Below are positions 1-50,308 of a DNA stretch of 64,000 nt, piece by piece (the stretch's first letter is position 1; each line of letters begins with the position of its first letter). The position numbers and the translations under genes are program-made. The stretch is from Halichondria panicea. Its lineage: Eukaryota > Porifera > Demospongiae > Suberitida > Halichondriidae. Below the pieces are notes generated by a model that saw only the letters and a program-made list of their open reading frames with translations, was not told where the DNA came from and did not search any database. The stretch is taken from NCBI RefSeq assembly GCF_963675165.1, contig NC_087379.1, positions 7,098,339-7,162,338 of the forward strand, in the 5' to 3' direction.

Positions 1-3000
1 GCTGCTCTCCTCAGGAGCCATGGTAGACCTGGCTAACAAAGTGAGTACCTGATACTAAACTGATGTGTCTATAGTACGGTGGTCCTGAGGTACACACATA
101 GTAGGCTCGAGGTTACGGCAATTCTCTACGTCAATTCAACTGAGGTCAGCTCCATTGAACTGAGGCTATGGCAATTCACTAATTAATAAGAAGAGGTTTT
201 CAATATTGCAAAATTAGAAATGAGTGTCCAATTATCTCCAAACAAGTTTGTGAAGAACTAAGGTGGTGGATTAGTGCTAACGGAATAGTTACCTATAGGC
301 TAGCTAATGACTCTATATACCGTTGAGGTCTGTAGCCTCTGCTTTAGCCATGACACAGACAGACAGAGTATGATTTTCTATTTAAAACACACCTGATATA
401 ATTATTTCTAGGGAGTTAAATTGACGTAGAGAATTGCCGTAGCCTCGAGCCTACTATGTGTGTACCTCAGGGCCACCGTACTATAGGCAGCATGTTCGTG
501 ACCATGCATGTACATACAATTATGGACGTTGCCGGCATTTTGAATTAAAATTAACCTTATTATGTTTTGCCTATAAGATATACTTATCTTGCTTGTGTTT
601 AAGTTGATAAACTGGGCTACATACATTTTCTTGCATGTTGTACTCTATTACCGATTAAAATCATAGACTATAATTATAGTGATACATTGTACAGTATATA
701 CTAGCCTCGTTCTCAGGCCGAGGTGTCTCTAAAATAACGCTAGATCGCCATGCAACTAGGCCTAGGGAAGATTGCATATGGGCGTGGTTTCAATTTGTTC
801 AGATCCAACAAATTTTGATGATTTTTCCGTAAAAGCTGCCGTAATCACAAAAATAGCTCCATGTTACAAAGCTAACCTAGCTAACTAGCTAGCTATAGGT
901 ATTAGATCTAGGTGGTAGCTATCAAGTTGTGTCAAACAAGAGGCCCCCCTCAATGAGCGTCAGGTCCAAGCTGTCAACTCCAGTGTGAAGGAAGGGACAT
1001 TTTGTGTGGTTCCCTACTGTGCTACCAGTTGCTGCAGACAATGAACTTGGAAGCCATTAGCTCGATCTATCTGGACATATAGCATAGGTGTATTTTGTGT
1101 TGCTAGGGTTATAAACTAGTTATGACACGTTCACTCGGGATGCATGGTGTATATTGCACTCAGCCCTCAGGCCAATATCATATTCTTTGTCATTTCTCTA
1201 GCTGTATTTTCATTATGGACATAATTTTACAATATACCAGATACAATCTATCCCAGGCCTAGTTGGTGACCTAGCATTATTTTAGAGACAACTCTGCCTG
1301 GGAACGAGGCTAAGTATATACATGCAGTTGTAGATGTACTGTACAATGTATTATGAACTTACGTGTGCTGACAATTATATTTCCTTGTGGATTGTATAGT
1401 GCTTTAAACTGACGTACTAGCCGGTTTATTTACATGTACTGTACTAGCTGGCTTAATATGTATGACTGTTGTGCTTGTGTTCTCACTCTAGGATGTGGTT
1501 GGAAATGTAGAGCAGTGAATGTCTGTATTGTTCAATGTACATTCATATTGTGTTGTCACTGTCTCTACTCTTGCAGTATGGGAACACTCCACTCATGAAG
1601 GCAGCCAGTGAAGGTCACACTGACTGTATTAGGGAGCTGCTCTCCTCAGGAGCCGTGGTGGACCTGGCTGACAAGGTGAGTATCTGATACTAAACTGATG
1701 TGTCTATATAGACAGCATGTTCGTGACCATCACATCATTAGGAATTATTTACATGTACCGTACTCACCCGAAAATATACACCCCCTTTGAATTTACGCCC
1801 CCCACTAGCCAGAGCAGGAAATGTATTGCAGAGGTATTTTCTATCTCAATAATACGCCCCCTAACCCCATCTAATTATGGCAGGTTCAATAATAGCTCCT
1901 GTTAGATCTAAACATAGTTTTATCAGAGGAGGTTGGCCACGTGTCATCATTTATGTGACGTCTCTGCTCACGTTACCATAGATACTGAACAACTATAAAG
2001 AAAGTTATGGCTACTCTTGTTTTGCTGAGCTTATAACACCTGACTAGCTGTGTATGTTGTCTGGTTGGACCAGGATTAGCTAGACTATAGGGTAGAGTGT
2101 AGTTCAGCGGTGCTGTATGCAGCTTGCACTGTACTGGCTGGCAAGAATCTAGTAAACACTGTATGCACTGATAACTCGTCAGAATGGAGGGGATCGCTGG
2201 GGATCGGGTTGGTTAATGAAAGCTCAAAGTAGCCAGAGTTGTGTAAATTTTGCCTTCAGTCTCCAATGACCGTGCAACACCAGCTAGAAGTTTACATAGA
2301 AATCATTGTCAATAAGCTGTGCCCACTCAGCAAAAAGTGGTGCACGTGATCGTGTCCAACCTCCTCTGTAGTTTTATAGTAGCTGGACGAGCAAGAGTTA
2401 GCTAGCTACAGATCTACCGACAGTTAGTGTGGCCGAGAAGAGTCACCCACCTCCACCTACCACCACGATTAACCGCGTGCACTTAAAACTAATGTCAATC
2501 TGTGCAAGGTCAAAGGTAAACAAGTAATGTCTGCATTCTAACTAAGGCAACGTATTAATTACTTTAGTTGAAGTGACCATTGATGAGGTGGGTTGGTCCT
2601 ACTATACTATCCTATAGTGATTCTAGACACTCTTCAAGAGTAGCTCTAGGACCAAATCCAACCTACCTGCACTGTGCATCGATGGCCATTTCAGCAAAAT
2701 TAAATACGTTGCGTTAATTAGAATGCAGACAACCTTGTGCAGACTGACCTGAAAATTTATTCTGTGTTCCTTTACTTTATTTATGATCTATCACACAGAC
2801 GTTTTGTCAAAAGTTATTATATAATTATGCTCTCACTCTTGTAGCATGGGAAGACTCCACTCATGAGGGCAGCCAGTGGAGGTCACACTGACTGTATTAG
2901 GGAGCTGCTCTCCTCAGGAGCCGTGGTGGACCTGGCTGACAAGGTGAGTATCTGATACTAAACTGATGTGTCTATAGTACGGTGGCCCTGAGGTACACAC

Positions 3001-6000
3001 ATAGTAGGCTCGAGGCTACGGCAATTCTCTACATCAATTCAACTGAGGTCAGCTCCATTGAACTGAGGCTATGGCAATTCACTAATTAATGTACTTTTAT
3101 AAGAAGATGTCTAATAAAATTATTACAAAATCAGATATGAGTCTCCAAGCATCTCCAAGCAAGTTTGTGAAGAACTAAGGGGGTGGATTAGTGCTAACGG
3201 AATAGTTACCTATAGGCTAGCTAATGACTCTATATACCGTTGAGGTCTGTAGCCTCTGCTTTAGCCATGACACAGACAGACAGAGTATGATTTTCTATTT
3301 AAAACACACCTGATATAATTATTTCTAGGGAGTTGAATTGACGTAGAGAATTGTCATAGCCTCGAGCCTACTATGTGTGTACCTCAGGGCCTCCGTACTA
3401 TAGGCAGCATGTTCGTGACCATGCATGTACGTACAATTATGGACGTTGCCGGCATTTTGAATTAAAATTAACCTTATTATGTTTTGCCTATAAGATGTAC
3501 TTATCTTGCTTATTAATTTTGTGTTTAAGTTGATAAACTGGGCTACATACATTTTCTTGCATGTTGTACTCTATTACCGATTAAAATCATAGACTATAAT
3601 TATAGTGATACATTGTACAGTATATACTAGCTTCGTTCCCAGGCCGAGGTGTCTCTAAAATAACGCTAGATCGCCATGCAACTAGGCCTAGGGAAGATTG
3701 CATATGGGCGTGGTTTCAATTTGTTCAGATCCAACAAATTTTGATGATTTTTCCGTAAAAGCTGCCGTAATCACAAAAATAGCTCCATGTTACAAAGCTA
3801 ACCTAGCTAGCTAGCTAGCTAGGTATTAGATCTAGGTGGTAGCTATCAAGTTGTGTCAAACAAGAGGCCCCCCTCAATGAGCGTCAGGTCCAAGCTGTCA
3901 ACTCCAGTGTGAAGGAAGGGACATTTTGTGTGGTTCCCTACTGTGCTACCAGTTGCTGCAGACAATGAACTTGGAAGCCATTAGCTCGATCTATCTGGAC
4001 ATATAGCATAGGTGTAGCCTCTACACAGGCTCTCCTTTTTCTGTTCTTTATCACAATCGTTCAATAAGATAAAATACTGTATTATTCGTTCAATGAGATA
4101 AAATACGGTATTAATTGGAGGAATAAAGAAAGAAATAGACGTAAAGTTAGGAAAAAGGAGAGCCTGTATCGGGAAGTCGCGTGAGGGTAGAAGGGTGGTA
4201 GAAGGGTGAAAATGAGCGTGGGCATACTGAGCTAGAGATGTTGGACTGCCCACGCAGAGGTCTACGACTAGTAAAACTTTGCCTGCTGCAAGCTGGACAT
4301 GGACTTGGAACTGGAAGTTTGCAAGCACTATAGCTAGCTATACCTTAGGCTTAGCTAGATGATCTACTAGTCTAGATTGTGTGTTTAAATTCTATCACTA
4401 TTACCTTTTCTTGTGTCTTTCTACATGCTATAGTAGAATAGCTTAGTCATCATTATCATATAGCAGGTAGCTACTGCCACCAGAGCTGGCCACGCTGGTT
4501 CTCTGATCTGACTTGCAGCACAGCTTGGTGGTTGTCTCAGTGCAGTACAGTACAGTCTTACTCGGAATGCGTGGGAGAATACCTTACGTCACGATTGTGG
4601 GCTACATATCGCCCACGTTCATAAAAATCCTTGTGGATCACGCGATTTCCCAAACCAGGCCTTACGTTTTCTTAACTGTACGCCCATTTCTTTCTTTGCT
4701 GCCTCACTATGTCTTTCTTATGTTTATGGATGAACAGTGACAACAGCAAGAAAAAGTAAGGCCTGGGAACGAGGCTAGCATAGGTGTATTTTGTGTTGCT
4801 AGGGTTATAAACTAGTTATAACACGTGCACTCGGGATGCATGGTGTATATTGCACTCAGCCCTCAGGCCAATATCATATTTTTTGTCATTTCTCTAGCTG
4901 TATTTTCATTATGGACATAATTTTACAATATACCAGATACCATGTATCCCAGGCCTAGTTGGTGACCTAGCATTATTTTAGAGACAACTCTGCCTGGGAA
5001 CGAGGCTAAGTATATACATGCAGTTGTAGATGTACTGTACAATGTATTATGAACTTACGTGTGCTGACAATTATATTTCCCTGTGGATTGTAGTGCTTTA
5101 AACTGACGTACTAGCCGGTTTATTTACATGTACTGTACTAGCTGGCTTAATATGTATGACTGTTGTGCTTGTGTTCTCACTCTAGGATGTGGTTGGAAAT
5201 GTAGAGCAGTGAATGTCTGTATTGTTCAATGTACATTCATATTGTGTTATCACTGTCTCCACTCTTGCAGGATGGGTGGACTCCACTCTCTATCGCAGCC
5301 CTGAACGATAACACTGACTGTATTAGAGAGCTGCTCTCCTCAGGAGCCGTGGTAGACCTGGCTAGCAAAGTGAGTACCTGATACTAAACTGATGTGTCTA
5401 TAGTACGGTGGTCCTGAGGTACACACATAGTAGGCTCGAGGCTACGGTAATTCTCTACATCAATTCAACTGAGGTCAGCTCCATTGAACTGAGGCTATGG
5501 CAATTCACTAATTAATGTACTTTTATAAGAAGAGGTTTTCAATATTGCAAAATCAGAAATGAGTGTCCAATCATCTCTAAACAAGTTTGTGAAGAACTAA
5601 GGGGGTGGATTAGTGCTAACGGAATAGTTACCTATAGGCTAGCTAATGACTCTATATACCGTTGAGGTCTGTAGCCTCTGCTTTAGCCATGACACAGACA
5701 GACAGAGTATGATTTTCTATTTAAAACACACCTGACATAATTATTTCTAGGGAGTTGAATTGATGTAGAGGATTGCCATAGCCTCGAGCCTACTATGTGT
5801 GTACCTCAGGGCCTCCGTACTATAGGCAGCATGTTCGTGACCATGCATGTACGTACAATTATGGACGTTGCCGGCATTTTGAATTAAAATTAACCTTATT
5901 ATGTTTTGCCTATAAGATGTACTTATCTTGCTTATTAATTTTGTGTTTAAGTTGATAAACTGGGCTACATACATTTTCTTGCATGTTGTACTCTATTACC

Positions 6001-9000
6001 GATTAAAATCATAGACTATAATTATAGTGATACATTATACAGTATATACTAGCCTCGTTCCCAGGCCGAGGTGTCTCTAAAATAACGCTAGATCACCATG
6101 CAACTAGGCCTGGGGAAGATTGCATATGGGCGTGGTTTCAATTTGTTCAGATCCAACAAATTTCAATGATTTTTCCGTAAAAGCTGCCGTAATCACAAAA
6201 ATAGCTCCGTGTTACAAAGCTAACCTAGCTAGCTAGCTAGCTAGGTATTAGATCTAGGTGGTAGCTATCAAGTTGTGTCAAACAAGAGGCCCCCCTCAAT
6301 GAGCGTCAGGTCCAAGCTGTCAACTCCAGTGTGAAGGAAGGGACATTTTGTGTGGTTCCCTACTGTGCTACCAGTTGCTGCAAACAATGAACTTGGAAGC
6401 CATTAGCTCGATCTACCTGGACATATAGCATAGGTGTATTTTGTGTTGTTAGGGTTATAAACTAGTTATGACACGTGCACTCGGGATGCATGGTGTATAT
6501 TGCACTCAGCCCTCGGGCCAATATCATATTTCTTTGTCATTTCTCTAGCTGTATTTTCATTATGGGCATTAATTGTACAATATACCAGATATACGATCTA
6601 TCCCAGGCCTAGTTGGCAACCTAGCATTATTTTAGAGACAACTCGGCCTGGGAACGAGGCTAAGTATATACATGCAGTTGTAGATGTACTGTACAATGTA
6701 TTATGAACTTACATGTGCTGACAATTACATTTCCCTGTGGATTTTAGTGCTTTAAACTGACGTACTAGCCGGTTTATTTACATGTACTGTACTAGCTGGC
6801 TTAATACGTATGACTGTTGTGCTTGTGTTCTCACTCTAGGATGTGGTTGGAAATGTAGAGCAGTGAATGTCTGTATTGTTCAATGTACATTCATATTGTG
6901 TTGTCACTGTCTCCACTCTTGCAGGATGGTAAGACTCCACTCATGAAGGCAGCCAGTGAAGGGCACACTGACTGTATTAGGGAGCTGCTCTCCTCAGGAG
7001 CCGTGGTGGACCTGGCTGACAAGGTGAGTATCTGATACTAAACTGATGTGTCTATAGTACGGTGGCCGGCCCTGAGGTACACACATAGTAGGCTCGAGGT
7101 TACGGCAATTCTCTACGTCAATTCAACTGAGGTCAGCTCCATTGAACTGAGCAATTCACTACTTTTATAAGAAGATGTCTAATATTACAAAATCAGATAT
7201 GAGTCTCCAAGCATCTCCAAGCAAGTTTGTGAAGAACTAAGGGGGTGGATTAGTGCTAACGGAATAGTTACATGTACCTATAGGCTGGCTAATGACTCTA
7301 TATACCGTTGAGGTCTGTAGCCTCTGCTTTAGCCATGACAGACAGACAGAGTATGAATTTCTATTTAAAACACACCTGATATAATTATTTCTAGGGAGTT
7401 GAATTGACGTAGAGAATTGCCGTAGCCTTGAGCCTACTATGTGTGTACCTCAGGGCCACTGTACTATAGGCAGCATGTTTGTGACCATGCATGTACGTAC
7501 AATTATGGACGTTGCCGGAATTTTGAATTAAAATTAACCTTATTATGTTTTGCCTATAAGATGTACTTATCTTCCTTATTAATTTTGTGTTTAAGTTGAT
7601 AAACTGGGCTACATACATTTTCTTGCATGTTGTACTCTATTACCGATTAAAATCATAGACTATAATTATAGTGATACATTATACAGTATATACTAGCCTC
7701 GTTCTCAGGCCGAGGTGTCTCTAAAATAACGCTAGATCGCCATGCAACTAGGCCTGGGGAAGATTGCATATGGACGTGGTTTTAATTTGTTTAGATCCAA
7801 CAAATTTCAATGATTTTTCCGTAAAAGCTACCGTAATCACAAAAATAGCTCTGTGTTACAAAGCTAACCTAGCTAACTAGCTAGCTACTGTAGGTATTAG
7901 ATCTAGGTGGTAGCTATCAAGTTGTGTCGAACAAGAGGCCCCCTTCAATGAGCGTTAGGTCCAAGCTGTCAACTCCAGTGTGAAGGAAGGGACATTTTGT
8001 GTGGTTCCCTACTGTGCTACCAGTTGCTGCAGACAATGAACTTGGAAGCCATTAGCTCGATCTACCTGGACATATAGCATAGGTGTATTTTGTGTTGCTA
8101 GGGTTATAAACTAGTTATGACATGTGCACTCGGGATGCATGGTGTATATTGCAAGCTAGAAGTTTACATTGTCAATAAGCTGTGCCAGCTCAGTAAAAAG
8201 TGGTGCAAGTGATCGTGTCCAACCTCCTCTGTAGTTTTATATAGTAGCTGGACGAGCAAGAGTTAGCTAGCTACAGATCTACCGACAGTTAGTGTTCCTA
8301 CGGTGGCCGAGAAGAGTCACCCGCCTCCGCCTACCACCACAATTAACCGCGCGCACTTAAAACTAATGTGAATCTGCACAAGGTCAATGAATAATGTCTG
8401 CATTTGAATTAACGCATTAATTAGCTAATGCAGACATTATTCGTTGACCTTGTGCAGACTGACCTGAACACTTGTTGGCGGTTCTTTGTTCCTTTACTTT
8501 ATTTACATGTATGGTCTATCACACAGATGTGTTGTAACTGCATGCTCTCACTCTTGTAGGATGGGAACACTCCACTCATAGCGGCAGCCAGGGAAGGGAA
8601 CACTGACTGTGTTAGGGAGCTGCTCTCCTCAGGAGCCATGGTGGACCTGGCTAATAAGGTGAGTACCTGATACTAAACTGATGTGTCTATAGTACGGTGG
8701 TCCTGAGGTACACACATAGTAGGCTCGAGGCTACGGCAATTCTCTACGTCAATTCAACTGCGGTCAGCTCCATTGAACTGAGGCTATGGCAATTCACTAA
8801 TTAATGTACTTTTATAAGAAGAGGTTTTCAATATTGCAAAATTAGAAATGAGTGTCCAATCATCTCCAAACAAGTTTGTGAAGAACTAAGGGGGTGGATT
8901 AGTGCTAACGGAATAGTTACCTATAGGCTAGCTAATGACTCTATATACCGTTGAGGTCTGTAGCCTCTGCTTTAGCCATGACACAGACAGACAGAGTAGG

Positions 9001-10489
9001 ATTTTCTATTTAAAACACACCTGATATAATTATTTCTAGGGAGTTGAATTGACGTAGAGAATTGCCGTAGCCTCGAGCCTACTATGCGTGTACCTCAGGG
9101 CCACCGTACTATAGGCAGCATGTTCGTGACCATGCATGTACGTACAATTATGGACGTTGCCGGCATTTTGAATTAAAATTAACCTTATTATGTTTTGCCT
9201 ATAAGATGCATTTATCTTGCTTATTAATTTTGTGTTTAAGTTGATAAACTGGGCTACATACATTTTCTTGCATGTTGTACTCTATTACCGATTAAAATCA
9301 TAGACTATAATTATAGTGATACATTGTACAGTATATACTAGCCTCGTTCTCAGGCCGAGGTGTCTCTAAAATAACGCTAGATCGCCATGCAACTAGGCCT
9401 GGGGAAGATTGCATATGGGCGTGGTTTCAATTTGTTCAGATCCAATAAATTTCAATGATTTTTCCGTAAAAGCTGCCGTAATCACAAAAATAGCTCCGTG
9501 TTACAAAGCTAACCTAGCTAACTAGCTAGCTAGGTATTAGATCTAGGTGGTAGCTATCAAGTTGTGTCAAACAAGAGGCCCCCCTCAATGAGCGTCAGGT
9601 CCAAGCTGTCAACTCCAGTGTGAAGGAAGGGACATTTTGTGTGGTTCCCTACTGTGCTACCAGTTGCTGCAGACAATGAACTTGGAAGCCATTAGCTCGA
9701 TCTACCTGGACATATAGCATAGGTGTATTTTGTGTTGCTAGGGTTATAAACTAGTTATGACACGTGCACTTAGGGGAGCAACATAATTATTAGAAACGCT
9801 TCATCACTATCTAATTAGCGAGGTTGCACCCCTCTAATTAATTAGAGGGGCTTCCTAACTATATTAACGGCCCTCAGTCATGGTCCGGCTCACCCTCCAA
9901 GGAGCGTTGCGGTAATGGGTAGCTGTACTCATCAGTACCTAGAATGACGTATATCTTCGTAGTGGTATTGGTATCTAATTGGGTGCATGGCTTGCATATT
10001 TATTACTGGACGTACAGTAGATTAATATGCAATTATCGTTGCCAGTATTGCTCTGTCAGCAAAGTACATGTCATACGCATTAGACCATTTACCTCTTACA
10101 ATGTACGTCTCATCCCTTTATATGATCATCATCACAGGATGGACGGACTGCTCTGATGATGGCCAAGAGATCACATCGCTCTAACCCTTCAGTAATAAAG
10201 CTGCTTGAAGAAGCTTCTGAATCACATGTGAGTCCATACCTCAATAATGCACACACTGCATGATCATGATGGTGTTTTAGTTTATTGTGCCGAATAATTA
10301 AATAGTGCATACATTATTATATGTACATCGAATAAAGATTCTTTTTTACGAGTATTTTGCTATTTTGACAATTTAAGATCATAAGCTCATACTTTTAAAT
10401 ACTGTCGATTAACTGCAATGGAGTGCAAACTACAGTTCCAATATTACACCCTCCTAAACAAGCATGAATACCATTACATGTGCCCCCCC

Positions 10490-10541
<52 letters not shown>

Positions 10542-13500
10542 CACATCCGCAGTCTGTTCCAGTCCTACCCAAGAACTGGAATGTCGTTACTGACACAGAA
10601 ACGTGAGTGACTATTGCACAGTTTAGTCACTAGCTTTTATGAATGTGAGTCAACTTTAGGAAGAAGCCAGTCTACCAGAACAAGGCAGCAGGGGAAACCC
10701 TCTCCACACCACCTGGATGTAAGTGTGTGCTTGTGCTGTATCCAGCACATGGTTCTGTGTGTTTTACCTCCTGTGTAGATCCCCTGCACCAAACCTCCGC
10801 ACACCCTGATGTCACTTTTTTTGACGAGCCTCAAGAGAAGGAGTTCACCTCCAGTGGTGGCCATGCTGACTTTGACAATGGAGTTCAAGTGACTGTTCCA
10901 GCTAATGCTGTCCCAGCAGGGACCTCTGTGGGCATTAAAGTCCAACCCGGCCTTGCCTCCAATGATGTCTTTGTGATACCTGAGGGCATTCAATCTGCCA
11001 GTCCGTCCTACTTGATCTCTGGTGAAGGTCTAAACGGAGAGGTGACCCTGAGCATGGAGCATCATGTACGAGTGTCCACCCAACAAGAAGCTGATGACCT
11101 CCTCTTTCTCCAAGCTAACTCGTCTCCCAAGAGATCTGATTCTCATAGTGTCTATGAGTACCAAGAAATACCAGAGGGGAGGTCAGAGTTCTCTCCTGGA
11201 GGGAACACTGGGAGACTTACGCTGGGCACACGACTGAAGAACTTCTTCAAAATTGGACGGAAAAATAGAGGTTAATATTTGAAAAATGAATGACTTCCAA
11301 TTGAACGATTATATTACATGTACAGGCAATACTGACGGTAACCTCTACACTGTCAGAGTCTACCGGTCTCCTCCACACACAACTGGGGACAGGCTAGCCA
11401 TCATTGTAGCCAGTCTCTCTGGGAGCTTATACGCTAAGGTAAGATAGCTCAATTGAAGTGTGCTCATTTTATATACCTACAGTTTCTGGAGACGCTTGAT
11501 ACAGTGTTGATCCCACGAGACTATCCCAATGTGTCGAGAGAAGCGGCTGACAGGACAACTCAAGGATCACTGACGTTTGTTGATATGTGTGCCACTCTCA
11601 ACATTCACCCAGTGCAGGGATGGTCTGTGGAACCAGACAAGAAATTGGTAATGTGAAATTGGTCACACTCTTAAAATCACATTAATCTAATTTCAGATCT
11701 CGCGTAGTGAAGTGGATCAGCCTGAGGTAGAGAAGTTCAGACCTGAGGATCTCCACAACTACCCTCCCAGGATAATCTGCAGGCTCTTTCCTGAGGAGAA
11801 TGCTCCCAAGAGAACCACCTGTACCATCTCCTTGTCTGGACTCCTGCCACAGGTCGAATTTTACGTATCATTGACAGCACCCACCCCCAAAGTTGCTGTG
11901 GATACTACTAAACTACAGGTATTCACGTTTGTACAGTGTAGCCTCTTGAAATGGTGTAGTGGGTACCTTTGGCAAACTAAATTTTACTCTTTTGATAGAG
12001 TTTCCCTCTTTGTTAAATCAACTAGCACATGTATAAATGAAAGCACCGCAGGTAATTAATATGAAAGCACCGTGGGTGCTGATACCTCAGTAGAGGTACC
12101 AAAGATACATAACATAAAGCTACTAATATAGCTAGCTTTTATACACAGATTGATTATATAATTATCATGATGAACATTTTTGCGTGCAATCACAGGGAAA
12201 CTCAAAGAGTGGGTAATGATAGACGATGATTGTTGTTAAAAACGATCGATGCCAAAAGTTCAAGTCTAAAATTAATGGCTGCAAGTCAGCAGAGCCTTGC
12301 AAGCTCTCTTCTCAATCTTGCAGCTACCAATAGCTAGCGTTCAAGTGCAGACATAACTGCTAAGTAGAGTAGCAATACTTGGTAAACAAGTTTGGCTACG
12401 GACTCTTCTGAAAAGGCTGCAATGGCCTTCCAAGTTAGCAAAACTAGGCATAACTCGAGAACGAAGTATTATTTTGCAAATCCACAAACTAAAATCAAGA
12501 AAACATGACTAGAAGCCTATAGAAACTCTTACTTACACTTCATTGATCCTTGTGCAGCTGTAGCAGTCTACACACACACACACACACACACACACAAATA
12601 CACTACCGTATACCTCGCTTACGCATGCGCACCCCAAAAGTTGCTGTGGATACTACTAAACTACCTTTGGCAAACTAAATTTTGCTCCTAGATAGATTTG
12701 TCCTCTTTGTTGATTCACTTGCACAGTCATGTATAAGTTAATTAATGCACACACAGTGTTTGTTTACAATGTACATTGTAGTTAAGTCTCATTCCAATTT
12801 GTTTAGGAGGCCACTGATGAGTTGAGAAGGTCTGCCCTGGCAGTGAGTGACACACAACTTGGCTCTACTGTGAAGAGTGTAGTGTCTCTGATGGAGAGAA
12901 TGACTGCTGCTCTGAGGTACCACTCAATTGCATATCTAGTGGAAGTCTGATTATCGCTTTTTCTTCTTCTAAAGGTCATCTTCTCTGAGTGAGCCTGCAG
13001 GCCACACTGACTCCATACGGACAGAGATAGCGTCTGTCCTTGTAGTGACCAGGAGTGTTGTCGAGGAGTGCACAGTACAGAGCATCAGTGAGAACATGAG
13101 AGCCAGTATCTCTAAGATGGAGACTTTATCTCACCAGCTTTGTATTGTGGCTAAGGTCAAACTGAGAAACTGTCAAGGTGAGACTGTGTGTTTATGATAT
13201 CAAGTGTTAGCTCTCATTCTCAATGGTACAGACCAGTCAGAGGAGACAGCTGCTCTTGTTGACCTGGTGGAGAATGGAGCTAATCTGTTGAGAGCTGTAG
13301 ACTGTCTACTCAGGGACATCCACACACTCAGTGGAGTCAGTGGTGAGTGTAGATTGTCGGAGTCTGTGTATCGAGTATCTAGCTACCGTATAGCGGGTAT
13401 ATTTCGAGGGCATACATTTTCGCGGAAATGCCTTTAGAAATTAAGGTTTTAATTTTCATGGAATAGCAGCCTTTTTGCTGCATGCATGCATACGATATTA

Positions 13501-17104: not shown

Positions 17105-17121
17105 ATTGAAGTCATTGTAAA

Positions 17122-34900: not shown

Positions 34901-37900
34901 CCCCCTTCAATGAGCGTTAGGTCCAAGCTGTCAACTCCAGTGTGAAGGAAGGGACATTTTGTGTGGTTCCCTACTGTGCTACCAGTTGCTGCAGACAATG
35001 AAATTGGAAGCCATTAGCTCGATCTACCTGGACATATAGCATAGGTGTATTTTTGTGTTGCTAGGGTTATAAACTAGTTATGACATGTGCACTCGGGATG
35101 CATGGTGTATATTGCAAGCTAGAAGTTTACATTGTCAATAAGCTGTGCCAGCTCAGTAAAAAGTGGTGCAAGTGATCGTGTCCAACCTCCTCTGTAGGTT
35201 TATATAGTAGCTGGACGAGCAAGAGTTAGCTAGCTACAGATCTACCGACAGTTAGTGTTCCTACGGTGGCCGAGAAGAGTCACCCGCCTCCGCCTACCAC
35301 CACAATTAACCGCGCGCACTTAAAACTAATGTGAATCTGCACAAGGTCAAAGGTCAATGAATAATGTCTGCATTCGAATTAACGCATTAATTAGCTAATG
35401 CAGACATTATTTGTTGACCTTGTGCAGACTGACCTGAACACTTGTTGGCGGTTCTTTGTTCCTTTACTTTATTTATTGTCTATCACACGATGTGTTGTAA
35501 CTGCATGCTCTCACTCTTGTAGGATGGGGACACTCCACTCATAGTGTCAGCCAGGAATGGGAACACTGACTGTGTTAGGGAGCTGCTCTCCTCAGGAGCC
35601 GTGGTGGACCTGGCTGACGAGGTGAGTACCTGATACTAAACTGATGTGTCTATAGTACGGTGGCCCTGAGGTACACACATAATAGGCTCGAGGTTATGAC
35701 AATTCTCTACGTCAATTCAACTGCGGTCAGCTCCATTGAACTGAGGCTATGGCAATTCACTAATTAATGTACTTTTATAAGAAGATGTCTAATATTACAA
35801 AATCAAATATGAGTCTCCAAGCATCTCCAAGCAAGTTTGTGAAGAACTAAGGGGGTGGATTAGTGCTAACGGAATAGTTACCTATAGGCTAGCTAATGAC
35901 TCTATATACCGTTGAGGTCTGTAGCCTCTGCTTTAGCCATGACGCAGACAGATAGAGTATGATTTTCTATTTAAAACACACCTGACATAATTATTTCTAG
36001 GGAATTGAATTGACGTAGAGAATTGTCGTAGCGTCGAGCCTACTATGTGTGTACCTCAGGGCCACCGTACTATAGGCAGCATGTTCGTGACCATGCATGT
36101 ACGTACAATTATGGACGTTGCCGGCATTTTGAATTAAAATTAACCTTATTATGTTTTGCCTATAAGATGCACTTATCTTGCTTATTAATTTTGTGTTTAA
36201 GTTGATAAACTGGGCTACATACATTTTCTTGCATGTTGTACTCTATTACCGATTAAAATCATAGACTATAATTATAGTGATACATTATACAGTATATACT
36301 AGCCTCGTTCCCAGGCCGAGGTGTCTCTAAAATAACGCTAGATCGCCATGCAACTAGGCCTGGGGAAGATTGCATATGGGCGTGGTTTCAATTTGTTTAG
36401 ATCCAACAAATTTCAATGATTTTTCCGTAAAAGCTGCCGTAATCACAAAAATAGCTCCGTGTTACAAAACTAACCTAGCTAACTAGCTAGCTAGGTATTA
36501 GATCTAGGTGGTAGCTATCAAGTTGTGTCAAACAAGAGACCCCCCTCAATGAGCGTCAGGTCCAAGCTGTCAACTCCAGTGTGAAGGAAGGGACATTTTG
36601 TGTGGTTCCCTACTGTGCTACCAGTTGCTGCAGACAATGAACTTGGAAGCCATTAGCTCGATCCACCTGGACATATAGCATAGGTGTATTTTGTGTTGCT
36701 AGGGTTATAAACTAGTTATGACACGTGCACTCGGGATGCATGGTGTATATTGCACTCAGCCCTCGGGCCAATATCATATTTATTTTTCTTTTCTCTAGCT
36801 GTATTTTCATTATAAAATAGACAATATACAATATACCAGATACAATCTATCCCAGGCCTAGTTGGCGACCTAGCATTATTTTAGAGACGACTCTGCCTGG
36901 GAACGAGGCTAAGTATATACAGTAGACTCTCGTTAATCCGGTCACCCTTGGGACCATGCAGCTTGGCCGGAATAGCGAGGTGGCTGCAGCTCAGGAAATA
37001 GCCGCGGCTTAAAAACGACCTTACCTCGAATCTAATGACTACTTTTGCGGTTCTTGTCTCGAGGATAATGTAGGATAATGAATCATTCTGTTCTCTATTT
37101 AAGTGTAATCTAATTTTATTTGCTAAACCACACCCAAAACGTCACATCCGGCTGTAATATACGTATAAAATTACATTGAAAACCTTGTTTGGGACAGCCA
37201 CCACTGGCCGGTAAACGGAATAGCGAGTGGCCGTACTTCAGGGTGAGTTTTGTGCAGTAAACATATAGCTAGCATTCCGTGCCAAGCCAAATGGCCGGTA
37301 TATCGAGGTGGCCGTACTTCAGAGAGCCGGAATAGCGAGAGTCTACTGTACATGCAGTTGTAGATGTACTGTACAATGTATTATGAACTTACATGTGCTG
37401 ACAAGTACATTTCCCTGTGGATTTTAGTGCTTTAAACTGACGTACTAGCCGGTTTATTTACATGTACTGTACTAGCTAGCTTAATACGTATGACTGTTGT
37501 GCTTGTGTTCTCACTCTAGGATGTGGTTGGAAATATAGAGCAGTGAATGTCTGTATTGTTCAATATGTACATTCATATTGTGTTGTCAATGTCTCCACTC
37601 TTGCAGAATGGGTACACTCCACTCATAGTGGCAGCCTTCATGGGACATGAAGATAATGTGAAGGAGCTTCTCTCGTCAGGGGCTTCCCCTCTCTGCACTA
37701 ATATTGTAAGCACATGTACTTTATAGAGTACATAGTTGCGTAGTTATACTTAACAAACAGCTTTACATGTACTGTACACCTATACCTCTTACAGTAGTTA
37801 ATGACTGAACAGAGCTGTCATTTGTACCTAAACAGATATACCCAACCTCTTAATATGCAATTACCGTTGCCAGTATTGCTATGTCAGCAAAGTACATGTC

Positions 37901-38930
37901 ATACGCATTAGACCACTTTACCTCTTACAATGTACGTCTCATCCCCTTCATATGATCATCATCACAGGATGGACAGACTGCTCTGATGATGACCAAGAAA
38001 TCATATTCCCCTAACCCTTCAATAATCAAGCTCCTTGAAGAAGCTACTGAATCACATGTGAGTCCATACCTCAATAATGCACACACTGCATGATCATGAT
38101 GGTGTTTTAGTTTATTGTACCGAATAATTAAATAGTGCATACATTATTATATGTACATCGAATAAAGATTCTGTTTTACGAGTATTTTGCTATTTTGACA
38201 ATTTAAGATCATAAGCTCATACTTTTAAATACTGTCGATTAACTGTATCAAGGGCGTATACAGAGAAGAGGGCATGCAACTCGCCCTATTCTCAGAATCA
38301 TCCGACTTCGTATTGAGCTATTTTTAGAACTGCCCACAAAAACGCCCACGCGTAACCTTTGACCGCACAAGGTAAATCAAAGTCTTTTTTATATCTGTGC
38401 TAGCTAGCTAGCTAGATGGCAGCATAGTAAAACTGGTTCTCAGCAGCAGTATGGCTCGTAGCAGTGTCAAAGGCAAAGGCAAACCATCCAACAGTTGCAA
38501 CTCCAAGAAGATGAAACCTAGGTACAATAAACCTGTCCTCCTGAGTCTCTGGTACTTCTTAACAATACGCCCAGCACTTAACTTCCCGCTCGAAGGAGTT
38601 GTCTTGGACCTGGCTGGACTAGGACTGGTCATGGCACTTCTCTAAAATAATACTGCACTGTTAGCTAGCTAGCTAGCTAGCAAAGGCACCTCTGATGTAC
38701 ACGCCCATAATTATAACTCCGTAAACAACACCGCCCACTTGTTCACGTCCGTATACTGGATTCTATTTTTAGCATATCCGGTCTCTGATACGAAGTCGGA
38801 TGAGTACGTAGGGTATATATAGATGCATGCCCTCTTCTCTGTATACGCCCTTGCTGTATGGAGTGCAAACTACTGTTCCAATATTACACATACCCAAACA
38901 AGCATGAATACCATTACATGTGCCCCCCCC

Positions 38931-38979: not shown

Positions 38980-41900
38980 AGTCACGTCCGCAGTCTATTC
39001 CAGTCCTACCCAAGAACTGGGCTGTCGTTACTGACACAGAAACGTGAGTGACTATTGCACAGTTGAGTCACTAGCTTTATGAATGTGAGTCAACTTTAGG
39101 AAGAAGCCAGTCTACCAGAACAAGGCAGCAGGGGAAACCCTCTCAACACCACCTGGATGTAAGTGTGTGCTTGTGCTGTATCCAGCACATGGTTCTGTGT
39201 GTTTTACCTCCTGTGTAGATCCCCTGCACCAAACCTCCGCACACCCTGATGTCACTTTCTACGACATGCCTCAAGAGAAGGAGTTCACCTCCAGTGGTGG
39301 CCACGCTGACTTTGACAATGGAGTACAAGTAACTGTTCCAGCTAATGCTGTCCCAGCAGGGACCTCTGTGAGCATTAAAGTCCAACCCAGCCTTGCCTCA
39401 AATGACGTGTTTGTGATTCCTGAGGGCATTCAGTCTGCCAGTCCGTCCTACTTGATCTCTGGTGAAGGTCTAAATGGAGAGGTGACCCTGAGCATGGAGC
39501 ATCATGTACGAGTGTCCACCCAACAAGAAGCTGATGACCTCCTCTTTCTCCAAGCTGACTCGTCTCCCAAGATATCTAGTACAAAGAGAGTATACCAGTA
39601 CCAGGAGGTACAAAACGGAAGATCAGAGTTTACTCCTGGAGGGGACACCGGGAGACTGAGGCTGAGCACACGACTGAAGAACTTCTTTAAAATTGGGAAG
39701 AGAAAAAGAGGTGAATATTTATGATTTTAGAATGACTTTTGATTCAACATATAATCTTTAATACATGTACAGGCAATACTGACAGTAACCTCTACACTGT
39801 CAGAGTCTACCGGTCTCCTCCACACACAACTGGGGACAGGCTAGCCATCATTGTAGCCAGTCTCTGTGGGAGCTTATACGCTAAGGTAAGATTGCTCAAT
39901 TGAAGTGTGCTCATTTTATGTACCTTAATTTACAGTTTCTAGAGAAACTTGATAAAGTGATTATCCCACGAGACTATCCCAATGTGTCGAGAGAAGTGGC
40001 TGACAGGACAACTCAAGGACCACTGACGTTTGTTGATATGTGTGCCACTCTCAACATTCACCCAGTGCTGGGATGGTCTGTGGAACCAGACAAGAAATTG
40101 GTAAAACATGAAGTTGGACACGGTCTTAAAATCACATTCTCTTCATTTTCAGATCTTGCGTAGTGGAGTGGATCAGCCTGAGGTAGAGAAGTTCAGACCT
40201 GAGGATCTCCACGACTACCCTCCCAGGATAATCTGCAGGCTCTTCCCTGAGAAGAATGCTCCCAAGAGAACCACTTGTACCATCTCCTTGTCTGGGCTAC
40301 TACCACCGGTCGAATTTTGCATACCATTGAAAATACTCACCCCCAAAGTTGCTGTGGATACTACTAAACTACAGGTATTCATGTTTGTACAGTGTAGCCT
40401 CTTGAAATGGTGTAGTGGGTGGGTACCTTTGGCTAACTAAATTTTGCTCCCTAGATAAATTTGTCCTCTTTGTTGATTCAACTTGCACAGTCATATAAGT
40501 TAATTAATGCACACACAGTGTTTGATTACAATGTACAATATTTCCCACCTACTACACTTTTGCCATGTAGTCTATAGTGGGGTTTAACTGTCATAAATTG
40601 CCACCTCAAGGCTACAAAGGAAAATATGGCTCATGGCACCTCAATCATATGCAGCAAAAATAAAAAATAATGGTGTTTTCGATGAATGAAGATGAATGCA
40701 TTGTCTTGCATGAGAAACAAAATGTCATAAATGAAAACATGAGGAGCTGCTTTAGAGACACTCTGGGAGAGGGCTAGGGCTCAGGCTGAGCTTTTTGCTC
40801 ACTAGCACTAGACTGCACGCACTGCACTGGGCCTGTTCAGCAAAGAAAAAGAAGCCATTTTAATAATAATATAGGAGTGGCTATTTTAAGCTTACCTTTG
40901 CTTGCCTACTAGCCTGGCATAGCTGAAGAGAGCTGGTCAGCCTGTCTAGAGCTAGCTGTGTTGTTTCTTCTGGCTGGTTGCTGCACAGTAAGTGGAGGGA
41001 GGGGCTGACTAATTAAATAGAGAGGGGGAGTGGCTCTGTACCGTTCGCTTGGAGGGAGGGGCTGGCTGCTCATTATTATTTTGTCCAGGCTGCGCAAGGA
41101 TTTGAGTGTGAACAGGAGACCTGGTGTGGACGAGCTCTCTTTTCCTAGTTGTCTTCTTGTTTGAATAGTGTTGCTATGTGGTAGTCATGCAAGCTTACAT
41201 AGGCTGGATGCATAGCAACCAGTCAGCCAATCAGATGGGACATAATTATATCAATTAATGCACAGTGCCTCGGGGTTTATGACAGTAAACCACACCTCTC
41301 ACTCGGGCTACACCCTCGTGGTCAGGAGGTTTACAGTCATAAACCCCTCTACACTGTACATTAACTAATACTTGTAGTTAAGTCTCATTCTAATTTGTTT
41401 AGGAGGCCACTGATGAGTTGAGAAGGTCTGCCCGGGCAGTGAGTGACACACAACTTGGCTCTACTGTGAAGAGTGTAGTGTCTCTGATGGAGAGAATGAC
41501 TGCTGCTCTGAGGTACCACTCAATTGTCTAGTGGAAGTCTGATTATCACTTTTTTTTCTGAAGGTCATCTTCTCTGAGTGAGCTGACAGGCCACACTGAC
41601 TCCATACGGACAGAGATAAAGGCTGTCCTTGTAGTGACCAGGAGGGTTGTCCAGGAGTGCACAGTACAGAGCATCAGTGAGAACATAAGAGCCAGTCTCT
41701 CTAAGATGGAGACTTTATCTCACCAGCTTTGTCATGTGACCAAGGTCAAACTCAGATACTGTCTAGGTGAGAACGTGTGTTTATGATATCAAGTGTTAGC
41801 TCTCATTCTCAAAGGTACAGACCAGTCAGAGGAGACAGCTGCTCTTGTTGACCTGGTGGAGAATGGAGCTAATCTGTTGAGAGCTGTGGACTGTCTACTC

Positions 41901-43915
41901 AGGGACATCCACACACTCAGTGGAGTCAGTGGTGAGTTTACATTGTCAGAGTCTGTGTATCGAGTATCTACCTACCGTATGGCGGGTATATTTCGAGGGT
42001 ATAAATTTTCGCGGAAGAAATTAATGTCTTTGCAGATTTGATTTTTGTGAAATAGCAGCCTATTTTGCAGCATGCATGCATACGATATTAAATTCTTGGT
42101 ACATGCTTAATCCATGACAACCACGAACATGTATACCCTCTATACGGTATTATGTTTTGATTTTAGATCAATGATACTCTGCTGCTCAACTGCAACCCCC
42201 CTCCCTCCGTTTCTTTCAGCTTCCATAACATGGCAGTTACAGTAGGATACCATGTTTGAATTTTAAATTCCAAGAGGGGGAAAACCAAATCCAAAGGAGG
42301 GTGGCAAAAGCCTCCCTAATTTCCCCCTGCTAATATTCACGTACAGTCTTTTGTCGAAATTTGCTGTTTTTTTTCCTCCCAAAACTTATAGCCAAAGAAT
42401 AATTATTTATATCTGGAGGCATAAGTGTTCTATGTACTGCAGATAATTCACATATCCATTATAATGATGTCTCCAACATTGCCACTACAATGTGGAAGCT
42501 GCTTTGGTGTTATGGTAATTGTTCACTCCACTAATCAGTGTATAATTATAGGACCATCCTCTAAACGAGTCACTCTTCAAGAACTAGTAGAGCAATACAA
42601 TCTGACTGACGAGCAACTCAACAGTGAAATAGAAGACTCTGATACTCCCGAAATGGCCTCATGTTTTGATGATGTGGACCTTTATTCGAGTTCAATGGGG
42701 CTAGGTATTGCTGATCAAGCCGATGTGAAGAGGTTGTACCATAGTGAAGGTACTCGAGCAGCCATGATGAAGTGTTTGCAAATCTGGAAAGAACGTAATC
42801 CTTTTCAAGCAACTTACAGAGCTCTACTGGATATCGCACTGAGATTGGGGAAAGGAGACACAGCTCATCAAATCTGTCAGCAATTGATCCAACGTAAGTA
42901 TATGTACACATGTTACCACATGTCAGGTGACAAGCCCCCTCCGCCTAAGCCCTCTACTAAGTAGCTATTCAAAATTTGGCTCAAGATTGAAATCGCAACA
43001 GAGAAGGCATTTGCCACAATCCCTATGATTGTGTGTATATACCATCATGCGTGCTTGTACACCTCCCTCCTAGACTGCACTGTTGAGTACTAGTGTATGA
43101 GAACCTCACCAAACTGATATACTGATTGTCTCCATATTGTACAGGAGGTGTGAGAGGTGTGGTCACTGGCTCGGACAGTATACAGGTATCCTGCATGTAT
43201 ACTGCTTGTATACAGTTTAGCTGTACAATAGATACTGAGTTTTCAACTTAAGTTGATTCAACTAGCAAGTATTTACAATCATATACATTTTGCTGTATAC
43301 ATGCACTGAAACACAGTGATTCTCACAGTCTAATTGTACCTGCTTCCTCAGGTTGAGGCTGGCGTTGCACGGAAGGTTCCGACTGTAGCCAGGACTGTGG
43401 TGGACATTAATGTGCGTTTATTTGTTACGTACCTTAAGTTAGCACAATTAACCGTCTATATACACTGCTAAATGTTGCTTGGCTGACCTACATTGTATGC
43501 ATGTCCATGTTACAGTACTGTATGTTTGCAATCTCATTTCTTTTTGCTTAATTATCTTCTGTAGGAAGCCACTGAAGTACTGAGGACAACAGTTGGTGAG
43601 ATGACCACCTCACAGCTTGGCTCTATTTTGGAGACTGTACTGTCACTAATGGAGAAAATTACAACTGCACTTCAGTGAGTTGTCTACTATTTTAATGGTA
43701 GCACTGTATTTACAATAATTTTTATGTCCCACCTCAGGTCATCTTCTCTGAGTGAGCTGACAGGCCACACTGACTCCATACGGACAGATGTTAGGTCCAC
43801 TCGTCAACTAGCCATGAAGATTGTCAAGGAGTGCAACATTGGAGCCAGTCTCTCTAAGATGGAGACTTTATCTCGTCAGCTTGGACGGTTGGCCGAGGAC
43901 AAACTCGGAGACTAG
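28936..43915 (+). CDS. Ankyrin-ZU5-Death domain protein, paralogue 2 (975 aa)
   Basis: Exons: 28936-29022 (start, MDIHRAAKAGNLRALKNAI, a capping ankyrin half), 29542-29640, 32275-32373, 33904-34002, 35523-35621, 37607-37705 (five 33-aa ankyrin repeats), 37968-38057, 38994-39043 (alternative 38982), 39100-39158, 39219-39710 (ZU5-like), 39773-39885, 39936-40100, 40153-40374, 41403-41512, 41564-41766, 41821-41931, 42552-42893 (Death domain), 43145-43185, 43352-43411, 43565-43674, 43738-43915 (TAG). Lengths sum to 2928 nt, exactly 976 codons. The helical exons before the Death domain (41403, 41564) are repeated after it (43565, 43738), an internal duplication. No signal peptide or membrane span is visible, so a cytoplasmic receptor or adaptor is likely; the ligand is unknown. 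Confidence 0.87.
29886..30437. mobile_element. CAGAGGAGGT-family foldback version
   Basis: The ends match the 1924-2368 element, but the inverted arms extend about 220 bp (for example GTTCAGCGGTGCTGTATG against its complement near 30225). The left flank keeps TAGTTTTAT; the right flank does not, so the right side was rearranged after insertion. Confidence 0.65.
31022..31188. mobile_element. Inverted-repeat element A, right half only
   Basis: Keeps the right arm ending CCGTAC. The left arm is replaced by unrelated sequence that contains a GAGGCCAGAGG...CCCCTCTGGC palindrome near 30968-31015. Confidence 0.6.
32407..32824. mobile_element. Inverted-repeat element A, gene 2 copy
   Basis: Complete 418-bp copy with TA flanks, in the intron after the exon ending at 32373. 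Confidence 0.75.
34036..34433. mobile_element. Inverted-repeat element A, short copy
   Basis: 398-bp copy with a small deletion next to the left arm. TA flanks are intact. Confidence 0.7.
35655..36070. mobile_element. Inverted-repeat element A, last gene 2 copy
   Basis: 416-bp copy. The left arm carries several substitutions (gaggttatgac), making it one of the more diverged arms. Confidence 0.7.
36302..36909. mobile_element. Inverted-repeat element B, gene 2 copy
   Basis: Both arms are intact and the element is TA-flanked. It directly precedes the younger element at 36920. Confidence 0.65.
36920..37348. mobile_element. CAGTAGACTCTCG element (pogo/Tigger-like ends), gene 2
   Basis: Ends CAGTAGACTCTCGTTAATCC and CGGAATAGCGAGAGTCTACTG are imperfect inverted repeats with TA on both sides. 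Gene 1 introns at the homologous point read tatatacatgcag without it. Such ends with TA duplication are characteristic of pogo/Tigger-type non-autonomous elements; there is no coding region. Confidence 0.75.
38249..38853. mobile_element. CAAGGGCGTATACAG element, 605 bp, gene 2 intron
   Basis: Ends CAAGGGCGTATACAG and CTGTATACGCCCTTG; the arms extend through AGAAGAGGGCATGC. CTGTAT borders both sides (38243-38248, 38854-38859). Genes 1 and 3 lack it in the homologous intron. Overlapping 60-74 aa ORFs inside match nothing I recognise. Confidence 0.7.
38931..38978 (+). repeat. C-tract and (CA)n at splice acceptor, gene 2
   Basis: Equivalent of the gene 1 tract. It ends in CTTAG, followed 12 nt later by CCGCAG, so two in-frame acceptors are possible (exon start 38982 or 38994). 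Confidence 0.85.
39219..39710 (+). other. ZU5-like domain exon of gene 2
   Basis: Same 492-nt length as in genes 1 and 3. It is nearly identical to gene 3's exon (50623), while gene 1's has more changes, mainly toward the C-terminal end (YQYQEVQNGRSEFTPGGD here). Confidence 0.75.
40540..41370. repeat. Intron expansion with hairpin, gene 2
   Basis: This roughly 0.8-kb segment between exons 40374 and 41403 is absent from the shorter gene 3 intron. It contains an inverted pair at about 41264-41358 (CGGGGTTTATGACAGTAAACC and GGTTTACAGTCATAAACCCC). No gene is seen. Confidence 0.5.
42552..42893 (+). other. Death domain exon of gene 2
   Basis: Same length as the gene 1 exon, with only a few substitutions (for example SSKRV for SAKRV and QLIQ for QLTQ). 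It is quite different from the gene 3 Death domain at 53670, so gene 3 uses a different Death-domain lineage. Confidence 0.85.
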
Positions 43916-44283: not shown

Positions 44284-44388
44284 CATTGGCATCATCAACA
44301 AAAACCAGTTATAAGTAGACTCTACTGTATTAAACACTGTGATATGTACACTATTATCTCTGCCCTACTATAATGCATATAATGGACT

Positions 44389-48257: not shown

Positions 48258-50308
48258 ATGGACATACACACTGCTGCCATTGTTGTTAACTTGAGTGCTT
48301 TAAAAGATGCCATTAAGAGGGGAGAGGATGTCAACAGTGTGAATGAGGTAAGCTGGTTTGTGGGTATGTAGAGCTGAAGCTGTGAAAGTCTGTTTTTGCT
48401 AGCTGTCATGCTAATTAATAATAATATACGAATGTACGATATCCCTTGATTCCATGCTTTAGTCTTGTCCCCAAATATTGTCTGTCTATCTCAAATGAGA
48501 GGTAAGGTCATCGGTCACCATACAGCTGTATTTCAGGCTACATAATTTATAGTAATGAGGGAGCAAACCACTTCAGAACCATACTGTGGTGATAGATAGT
48601 TGATGCATGTGCTCTGTCACCGGAATAACTGTGGACATGGAAAAGCTCGATCCACCTGGACATAATTATAGCATAGGTGTATTTTGTGTTGCTAGGGTTA
48701 TAAACTAGTTATGACACGTGCACTCGGGATGCATGGTGTATATTGCACTCAGCCCTCGGGCCAATATCATATTTATTTTTCTTTTCTCTAGCTGTATTTT
48801 CATTATAAAATAGACAATATACAATATACCAGATACAATCTATCCCAGGCCTAGTTGGCAACCTAGCATTATTTTAGAGACGACTCTGCCTGGGAACGAG
48901 GCTAAGTATATACAGTTGACTCTCGTTAATCCGGTCACCCTTGGGACCATGCAGCTTGGCCGGAATAGCGAGGTGGCTGCAGCTCAGGAAATAGCCGCGG
49001 CTTAAAAACGACCTTACCTCGAATCTAATGACTACTTTTGCGGTTCTTGTCTCGAGGATAATGTAGGATAATGAATGATTCTGTTCTCTATTTAAGTGTA
49101 ATCTAATTTTATTTGCTAAACCACACCCAAAACGTCACATCCGGCTGTAATATACGTATAAAATTACAAAACCTTGTTTGGGACAGCCACCACTGGCCGG
49201 TAAACGGAATAGCGAGTGGCCGTACTTCAGGGTGAGTTTTGTGCAGTAAACATAATATAGCTAGCATTCCGTGCCAAGCCAAATGACCGGTATATCGAGG
49301 TGGCCGTACTTCAGAGAGCCGGAATAGCGAGAGTCTACTGTACATGCAGTTGTAGATGTACTGTACAATGTATTATGAACTTACATGTGCTGACAATTAC
49401 ATTTCCCTGTGGATTTTAATGCTTTAAACTGACGTACTAGCCGGTTTATTTACATGTACTGTACTAGCTGGCTTAATACGTATGACTGTTGTGCTTGTGT
49501 TCTCACTCTAGGATGTGGTTGGAAATGTAGAGCAGTGAATGTCTGTATTGTTCAATGTACATTCATATTGTGTTGTCACTGTCTCCACTCTTGCAGGATG
49601 GGACCACTCCACTCATGAGGGCAGCCTTCTGGGGACAGGAAGATACTGTGAAGGAGCTTCTCTCAGCAGGGGCTTCCCCTCTCTGCACTAATAATGTGAG
49701 CACATGTACTTTATACAGTACATGTTGCGTAGTTATACTTAACAAACAGCTTTACATGTACTGTACACCTATACCTCTTACAGTAGTTAATGACTGAACA
49801 GAGCTGTCATTTGTACCTAAACAGAAATAACCAACCTCTTAATATGCAATTACCCTTGCCAGTATTGCTCTGTCAGCAAAGTACATGTCATACGCATTAG
49901 ACCACTTTACCTCTTACAATGTACGTCTCATCCCTTCATATGATCATCATCACAGGATGGAGAGACTGCTCTGATGATGGCCAAGAGATCACCTCTCCCT
50001 AACCCTTCAGTAATCAAGCAGCTTGAGGAAGCTACTGAATCACATGTGAGTCCATACCTCAATAATGCACACACTGCATGATCATGATGGTGTTTTAGTT
50101 TATTGTGCCGAATAATTAAATAGTGCATACATTATTATATGTACATCGAATAAACATTCTTTTTTACGAGTATTTTGCTATTTTGACAATTTAAGATCAT
50201 AAGCTCATACTTTTAAATACTGTCGATTAACTGCATGGAGTGCAAACTACAGTTCCAATATTACACACACCCAAACAAGCATGAATACCATTACATGTGC
50301 CCCCCCCC

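Follow-up and report, generated by a model that had tools for sequence, protein, structure and literature searches.

How could an animal without antibodies build a repertoire of receptors for variable ligands? A concrete locus at which this can be asked lies in the genome of the sponge Halichondria panicea (131 Mb in 39 contigs), of which we analysed bases 7098339–7162338 of contig C3 (NC_087379.1), a 64-kb stretch from one genome that is called the window here. On its + strand lie three genes in tandem, the first entering from upstream, and eleven ankyrin repeat exons of 99 bp are split among them. A few codons of these exons differ from repeat to repeat within a conserved framework, which the original prediction, made from the letters of the window, had taken as the mark of receptors that track variable ligands. 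We assign a probability of roughly two in three to the interpretation that the genes belong to a cytosolic ankyrin–ZU5–Death sensor repertoire shaped by diversifying selection and germline exon recombination.

All eleven exons begin exactly where they had been placed, each is open and flanked by AG and GT, and the residues given for positions 3, 7–8 and 11–12 agree letter for letter with the translations. The list of variable positions was right in those that it named and left out residue 1, which is also hypervariable. A hidden Markov model (HMM) built from the eleven exons and run over both strands of the window found no further full exon and only the 3′ end of one at 2–40 (+ strand, gene 1), whose 5′ part lies just upstream (full exon W+1780 in L030 plus window). 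The exons at 37607 and 49597 form a separate 'last repeat' class (SPLCTN). Each 99-bp exon consists of whole codons from its first base to its last; thus, exons can be added or skipped with the reading frame unchanged.

The family extends far beyond the window. An 18-mer from the exon core has 287 copies in the genome at up to two mismatches, compared with four for the same pattern read backwards, which excludes chance. The ZU5 exon has 42 genome matches, 38 of which (at least 73% identity, E below 1e-70) represent strong gene loci. Two of these 38 contain an in-frame TGA; the copies at C27:1562–2035, on a small contig, and at C6:6265490–6265963 have the same score and are perhaps one locus with an alternative haplotype. 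Our exon sample comprises 129 matches from the window and 40 related stretches (L009–L048) and covers part of the family. All but four of them (125/129) are 99 bp long, flanked by AG and GT, and open; of the others, two have a GC donor, one measures 102 bp and one lacks a donor in register. The 125 intact exons divide into 115 core and 10 last-repeat exons; four of the core exons were dropped by score or class, which left 111 (80 unique) for analysis. Core exon number per gene ranges from 0 (gene 3, with a last-repeat exon only) to at least 21. Two paralogous arrays, C3:5417–5437 kb with at least 21 core exons and C3:5523–5537 kb with 12, share exon types, and their differing exon numbers are evidence of repeat gain or loss. 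The first of them consists of a few near-identical exon types that are repeated.

Replacement changes at six codons of the repeat

Of 6,105 exon pairs, 6,050 can be aligned over the exon. In these pairs, which are not independent of one another, replacement differences per site amount to 0.50 at codons 3, 7, 8, 11 and 12 and to 0.077 at the other 28, compared with 0.108 for silent differences. The codon site-class models M1a and M2a were fitted to the 80 unique exons with our own implementation, in which branch lengths are scaled and not re-optimised. M2a exceeds M1a by a doubled log-likelihood difference (2dlnL) of 198.8, with a ratio of replacement to silent rates (dN/dS, omega) of 5.66 and a posterior above 0.95 for codons 1, 3, 7, 8, 11, 12 and 32. 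A tree made from the other 27 codons, without the six, gave a 2dlnL of 751 and an omega of 23 and pointed to the same six codons. Independently of any tree, single-base changes were counted in the 24 closest disjoint exon pairs (at most 8 nt apart), with 11 multiply changed codons excluded (8 in the six, 3 elsewhere). The six codons contain 31 replacement and 2 silent changes, compared with 29 and 24 elsewhere; the 31 replacements set against all 26 silent changes correspond to an omega of about 2.4 (P=0.0008). Long-term omega at the six codons is about 2.4–5.7. The original claim that replacement is favoured at the named codons, for which a dN/dS above 1 had been suggested as a check, is thus upheld for the whole exon set by the site-class model and by the closest pairs, and it extends to codon 1.

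It could be objected that the repeats differ at the variable codons through old, neutral changes, that gene conversion has homogenised the introns and frameworks around these codons, and that recombination has raised dN/dS above 1 artefactually, an explanation that we consider unlikely. Recombination does inflate the test. To represent within-exon recombination, we simulated 120 data sets under M1a in which the labels of the tree were permuted after every 2 or 4 codons, and 48 of them (7/12 and 41/108) passed the nominal 5% threshold. However, the highest 2dlnL among them was 42 and no omega exceeded 4.05, in fits with fewer starts and iterations than were used for the real data, and the observed 2dlnL of 199 lies far above this maximum. 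The codons themselves also speak against old neutral differences. Third positions are nearly fixed at codon 1 (NNT in 79/80 exons), codon 8 (NNG in 77/80) and codon 12 (NNA in 72/80), where first and second positions vary, a pattern that an old neutral tract leaves unexplained; at codons 3, 7 and 11 all three positions vary. Of the interleaved codons, codon 4 is invariant among the 80 exons, and changes at codons 5, 9 and 10 are very rare. Parsimony steps per first or second position of the six codons number 24.0, compared with 2.5 per four-fold site on the framework tree, and 13.6 compared with 2.9 on the full tree. Local hypermutation is unlikely and was rejected, since codons 1, 8 and 12 hardly change at their third positions and the interleaved codons are conserved.

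The signalling half of the proteins is constrained, with a ratio of replacement to silent differences per site (pN/pS) of 0.27 for ZU5 (8 sequences) and 0.57 for Death form b (5 sequences). Values of 0.70 (4 sequences) and 0.57 (6 sequences) were obtained for two post-ZU5 exons and of 1.45 for the last-repeat exon (9 sequences).

Introns, segmental duplicates and exchange between exons

The introns had been described as nearly identical and put forward as a measure of neutral divergence. The 11 core exons of two window genes, two of which lie in or straddle the 1.8 kb upstream, form 55 pairs. The description holds for 17 of these, whose introns align on both sides over 100 bp or more and differ by 3.0% over 1,748 bp per pair; the alignments of the other 38 remain below that length. 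In the 17 pairs pN at codons 3, 7, 8, 11 and 12 is 0.63, so that exon divergence at these sites exceeds intron divergence about 20-fold, in the predicted direction. By contrast, introns had to be abandoned as a neutral clock, since positional homologues lack a replacement excess, and exon silent sites were used instead. The absence of an excess in duplicates implies that introns and exons do not have one shared history, and the 20-fold contrast mostly reflects homogenisation of introns, with variants retained or shuffled.

The same duplicates are the first of several observations that count against diversifying selection as we propose it. Fourteen positionally homologous segmental-duplicate pairs contain 6 silent changes. 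Of their replacements, 2 affect the six codons, both in one last-repeat exon (codons 1 and 7), and 2 lie elsewhere. From 6 silent changes, about 17 replacements would be expected at an omega of 5.66 and 7 at 2.4. Nine core duplicate pairs with long introns, which contain 221 differences in 24,312 bases, have no replacement at the five codons, compared with about 6 expected at an omega of 5.66 (P=0.002). Exon pairs at most 3 nt apart show no replacement excess either (3 compared with 5 silent changes); recent fast replacement is not seen in duplicates or closest pairs. In addition, up to 6 sites were flagged in the null simulations, which makes site lists alone weak proof, and the N-cap (pN/pS 0.73, 8 sequences), C-cap (0.84, 9) and linker (0.87, 8) are under mild constraint.

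The duplicates also fit the explanation by old neutral differences, as do the alignable introns, which are closer within genes (1.5%, 850 bp per pair) than between them (5.5%, 172 bp per pair). The variable codons differ strongly both within genes (0.36) and between genes (0.51). Within one array whose introns are 0.85% apart, pairs of different exon type (28 pairs) have 5.4 replacements at the five codons and 0.84 silent changes per pair, compared with 0.16 and 0.30 in pairs of the same type (37 pairs), a contrast that is based on only three exon types. Together with the intron pattern, these contrasts indicate that introns and frameworks are homogenised by exchange and that variable blocks are kept or moved.

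So sharp a confinement of differences might suggest that targeted hypermutation or a cassette mechanism rewrites codons 1–12 of each exon. Across 68 different-type pairs from the two paralogous arrays, whose introns can be aligned for 400 bp or more on either side, divergence is 12.3% in codons 1–12, 0.2% in codons 13–33 and 1.2% in introns, and there are 5.4 replacements at codons 3, 7, 8, 11 and 12 compared with 0.5 silent changes per pair. However, these pairs combine just three exon types (in sets of 32, 24 and 12) and thus offer no more than three contrasts. Inside the block, four-fold sites are fixed, and the segmental duplicates show no replacement excess. Moreover, an AGT-AAA pair of one type is present in a neighbouring type, so that ordinary short-tract conversion suffices. 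A dedicated rewriting mechanism appears highly improbable to us.

Several observations bear on exchange over short tracts, which belongs to the sensor repertoire that we favour. Same-class site pairs within exons are associated (z>3) in 42–56% of cases within 6 nt and in 4–16% beyond. The 80 unique exons contain 69 distinct six-residue keys, as expected if short-tract exchange is frequent, and one array type resembles a mosaic of two neighbours, a single case. Exact single-switch recombinants among codon 1–12 blocks number 12 of 73, which is within the spread of column-shuffled sets (mean 7.6, maximum 15). A divergence peak that fades away from the exon was suggested upstream in the window pairs and was flat in 190 pooled pairs.

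At the start of five gene 1 introns lies an element (66–489, 2969–3406, 5395–5828, 7068–7472 and 8684–9117) that resembles miniature inverted-repeat transposable elements. It is bounded by inverted repeats of 61–76 bp with 92–97% complementarity; the intron that follows exon 1577 has none. Further along, an inverted motif of 49 bp is repeated. Such shared intron elements may help unequal exchange.

Domain architecture and candidate function

Comparison with 200 kb of related clusters revealed a common gene plan, in which an N-cap exon with the ATG is followed by repeat exons, one last-repeat exon, a C-cap, ZU5, linkers and Death; some family members are incomplete relative to it. The repeats are N-terminal. 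For gene 1, a splice model whose sites were picked by eye and which starts at the first full exon in the window remains open for 864 residues to the stop. A Pfam scan of this product at E up to 1 returned Ank families, ZU5, a weak Death match and vinculin-like and VBS-like matches; NACHT, a ROC-COR or NB-ARC core and a second ZU5 were not found in it. Single-exon scans identified ZU5 in the three window genes with 21.4, 24.1 and 24.1 bits (cut-off 21). The statement that Death domains are attached stands for the family, given that each of the nine scanned members has a Pfam Death match with E up to 0.1 and that five C3 exons elsewhere, 68–84% identical to the Death exon of gene 3, exceed the Pfam cut-off. 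Within the window it is less firm: the Death matches reach 16–20 bits, below the cut-off of 22.6, and this counts against the interpretation that we favour, as does the lack of a UPA match. ZU5 in the spliced gene 1 query drops to 18.5 bits, also below its cut-off. At E up to 1, Pfam matched neither UPA nor FIIND in the product of gene 1, and a profile of the post-ZU5 region found neither UPA nor any other relative in the PDB; divergence could conceal a UPA domain. A family ZU5 profile found no ZU5 in the PDB. The Death exons matched chiefly designed pentatricopeptide repeat (PPR) and related helical-repeat proteins there, which we judged to be chance helical similarity.

Inspection by eye, with no predictor run, revealed no signal peptide at the protein start. 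Given the lack of a visible signal sequence, the N-terminal repeats and the C-terminal Death domain, cytosolic sensing coupled to death-fold signalling is the likeliest role that the sequence suggests. We propose that each product would act as an intracellular sensor, in which an ankyrin cap and 1 to at least 21 interchangeable repeats precede ZU5 and Death. Long-term selection would favour change at residues 1, 3, 7, 8, 11 and 12 of the beta-turn and first helix and keep the codons between them, ZU5 and Death. New arrays would originate in the germline as near-identical exon–intron units recombine: exons would be gained or lost, and exchange of short tracts within them would homogenise introns and frameworks and reshuffle the variable residues. 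The six residues would contact ligands, possibly variable pathogen or self molecules, and ligand binding might trigger signalling via the Death domain.

That the six residues share a face of the protein is suggested by structural comparison. In the PDB alignments shown, the repeats align gap-free to ankyrin-1, the best PDB match, and to an ankyrin-1/2 chain; designed ankyrins are among the other matches. The accessible part of a report on a designed ankyrin protein names residues 46, 48, 56 and 57 as randomised contact positions (PMC3602593), and these are spaced like residues 1, 3, 11 and 12 here, a register inferred from that spacing. The earlier equation of the variable positions with the usual binding surface is supported for four of the six codons in this way. 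Residues 7 and 8, which vary here and sit in the TPLxxAA start of helix 1, have no counterpart among the positions that this part of the report gives as randomised. Judging from residue spacing and the cited structures, all six residues probably lie on the binding, concave face.

It is also conceivable that the proteins are structural or cytoskeletal adaptors of the ankyrin type, which bind different fixed cellular partners and have no role in non-self recognition. In canonical ankyrins, PIDD and NLRP1/CARD8 (with FIIND), ZU5 and a death-fold domain come after the sensor region, and the genes described here resemble them in having a sensor region, ZU5 and a C-terminal Death domain. The ankyrin–ZU5–Death order of canonical ankyrins, ankyrin-1 as the closest structure and a weakly indicated vinculin-like linker, below cut-off, would all suit an adaptor. 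Yet 38 strong loci, clustered duplication, differing repeat number and diversification of the binding face would not be expected of fixed scaffolds. Furthermore, the genes have one ZU5 and no detected UPA or second ZU5, which sets them apart from canonical ankyrins and FIIND proteins, and their repeats are hypervariable and exon-modular. We regard a purely structural function as improbable.

Parallels to a sensor repertoire exist in other kingdoms. NLRs of Podospora anserina possess near-identical tandem ankyrin repeats that are polymorphic in number; in each repeat five positions, most of which lie on the concave face, are under positive selection, and concerted evolution was proposed for the repeats (PMC4986451). 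Likewise, positive selection here affects six codons whose positions are probably concave. The fungal ankyrin genes listed in table 4 of that report contain NACHT and PNP-UDP domains, whereas we found ZU5 and Death and no NACHT in an animal with one exon per repeat and long introns. Animals seldom have ankyrin, TPR or WD repeats with high internal conservation (0.8%; PMC4986451); the fungal type is defined by repeats more than 85% identical over at least 100 aa, and the nine window repeats have a mean column identity of 82%. In general, NLRs differ in that their repeat sensor is C-terminal. Brown-algal LRR-ROCO and NB-TPR genes encode one repeat per same-phase exon and are considered a candidate immune repertoire generated by exon shuffling and diversifying selection (PMC11378527). 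One repeat per same-phase exon is also found here (125/129 exons), with ankyrin repeats and ZU5–Death in place of leucine-rich repeats (LRR) or TPR with ROC-COR or NB. The LRR genes of Tetrahymena form a huge family with arrays of exactly 90-bp exons, and in young members the intron–exon units are repetitive in DNA and undergo ectopic recombination (PMC6564038). Both families are large, with uniform exons and repetitive intron–exon units, but those of Tetrahymena encode LRR, have phase 2 introns and show mostly purifying Ka/Ks (PMC6564038). The sponge family thus works like known modular repeat receptors, yet by the domains examined here it falls outside NLRs, ROCO proteins and canonical ankyrins. 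No such animal family is named among the matches listed by a search of literature titles and abstracts, which left subscription papers outside.

Diversifying selection, gene number and the analogy with fungi and brown algae make a non-self ligand plausible, and an immune or self-recognition function may be envisaged on the same analogies. A more far-reaching variant, possible but doubtful, would be a combinatorial repertoire specific to the individual, in which allelic and perhaps splice assortment of ankyrin exons serves allorecognition or pathogen recognition in the absence of NLR domains or gene rearrangement. The combination of exon-per-repeat modularity, site-specific diversifying selection and Death in an animal would represent a convergent solution to variable recognition.

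Gene models and further elements of the window

All gene features lie on the + strand. The ankyrin repeat exons of gene 1, with coordinates checked and recovered by the HMM, are located at 1577..1675 (99 bp, in frame from base 1), 2845..2943, 5271..5369 and 8560..8658; a further one at 6925..7023 has an identical 139-bp copy, comprising the exon and the start of the intron, 30 kb upstream. They are followed in the splice model by a C-terminal ankyrin cap exon with checked boundaries (10138..10227), a short linker exon (10541..10602) and the ZU5 exon (10660..11270; 21.4 bits). Three post-ZU5 exons in the place of UPA (11326–11438, 11483–11647, 11697–11918) have no convincing Pfam or PDB match. 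Three linker exons (12807..13342), with the weak vinculin-like match, precede the Death exon of form a (13965..14377), which scores 16.1 bits and forms an open spliced frame to the stop.

Gene 2 begins with an exon in which the ATG leads directly into the ankyrin N-cap (28936..29022; family comparison, boundaries checked). Its four core repeat exons (29542..29640, 32275..32373, 33904..34002, 35523..35621) were confirmed by coordinates and HMM. They are succeeded by the last-repeat exon of the SPLCTN class (37607..37705), assigned by family comparison, and by a C-cap exon with checked boundaries (37968..38057). Its ZU5 (39236..39556) scores 24.1 bits and its Death domain of form a (42551..42886) 16.5 bits, below cut-off. 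Gene 3 comprises a first exon with ATG and N-cap (48258..48347, boundaries checked), the sole repeat exon found, of the last-repeat class (49597..49695, coordinates checked), a C-cap exon (49956..50045, boundaries checked), ZU5 (50640..50960; 24.1 bits) and a Death domain of form b (53669..53989; 19–20 bits, below cut-off).

Between the genes, linker and Death fragments are scattered over 15136–28000 (15136, 18549, 25081, 25992, 27574) and 43739–45425 (43739, 45327); they appear to be relics of duplicated genes or else alternative 3′ exons of such genes. A conserved terminal exon of 98 aa at 47727–48020, 3′ of gene 2, has relatives in L015, L017, L025 and L027 and perhaps provides an alternative C-terminus. 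It has no Pfam match, and a CARD label considered for it was dropped as the Pfam result was empty. Long open frames at 21884–23354 on the − strand resemble what we take to be a piggyBac-type transposase, and a minisatellite-like repeat at 24121–24607 is open in several frames on both strands.

Elsewhere in the genome, C12:1.04–2.08 Mb (L001–L006) contains a second ankyrin family with open frames of up to 4,555 aa, built of 102-residue modules of three ankyrin repeats. These frames have no internal introns, Death exons are scattered over the same stretch, and the family is possibly a second repertoire.

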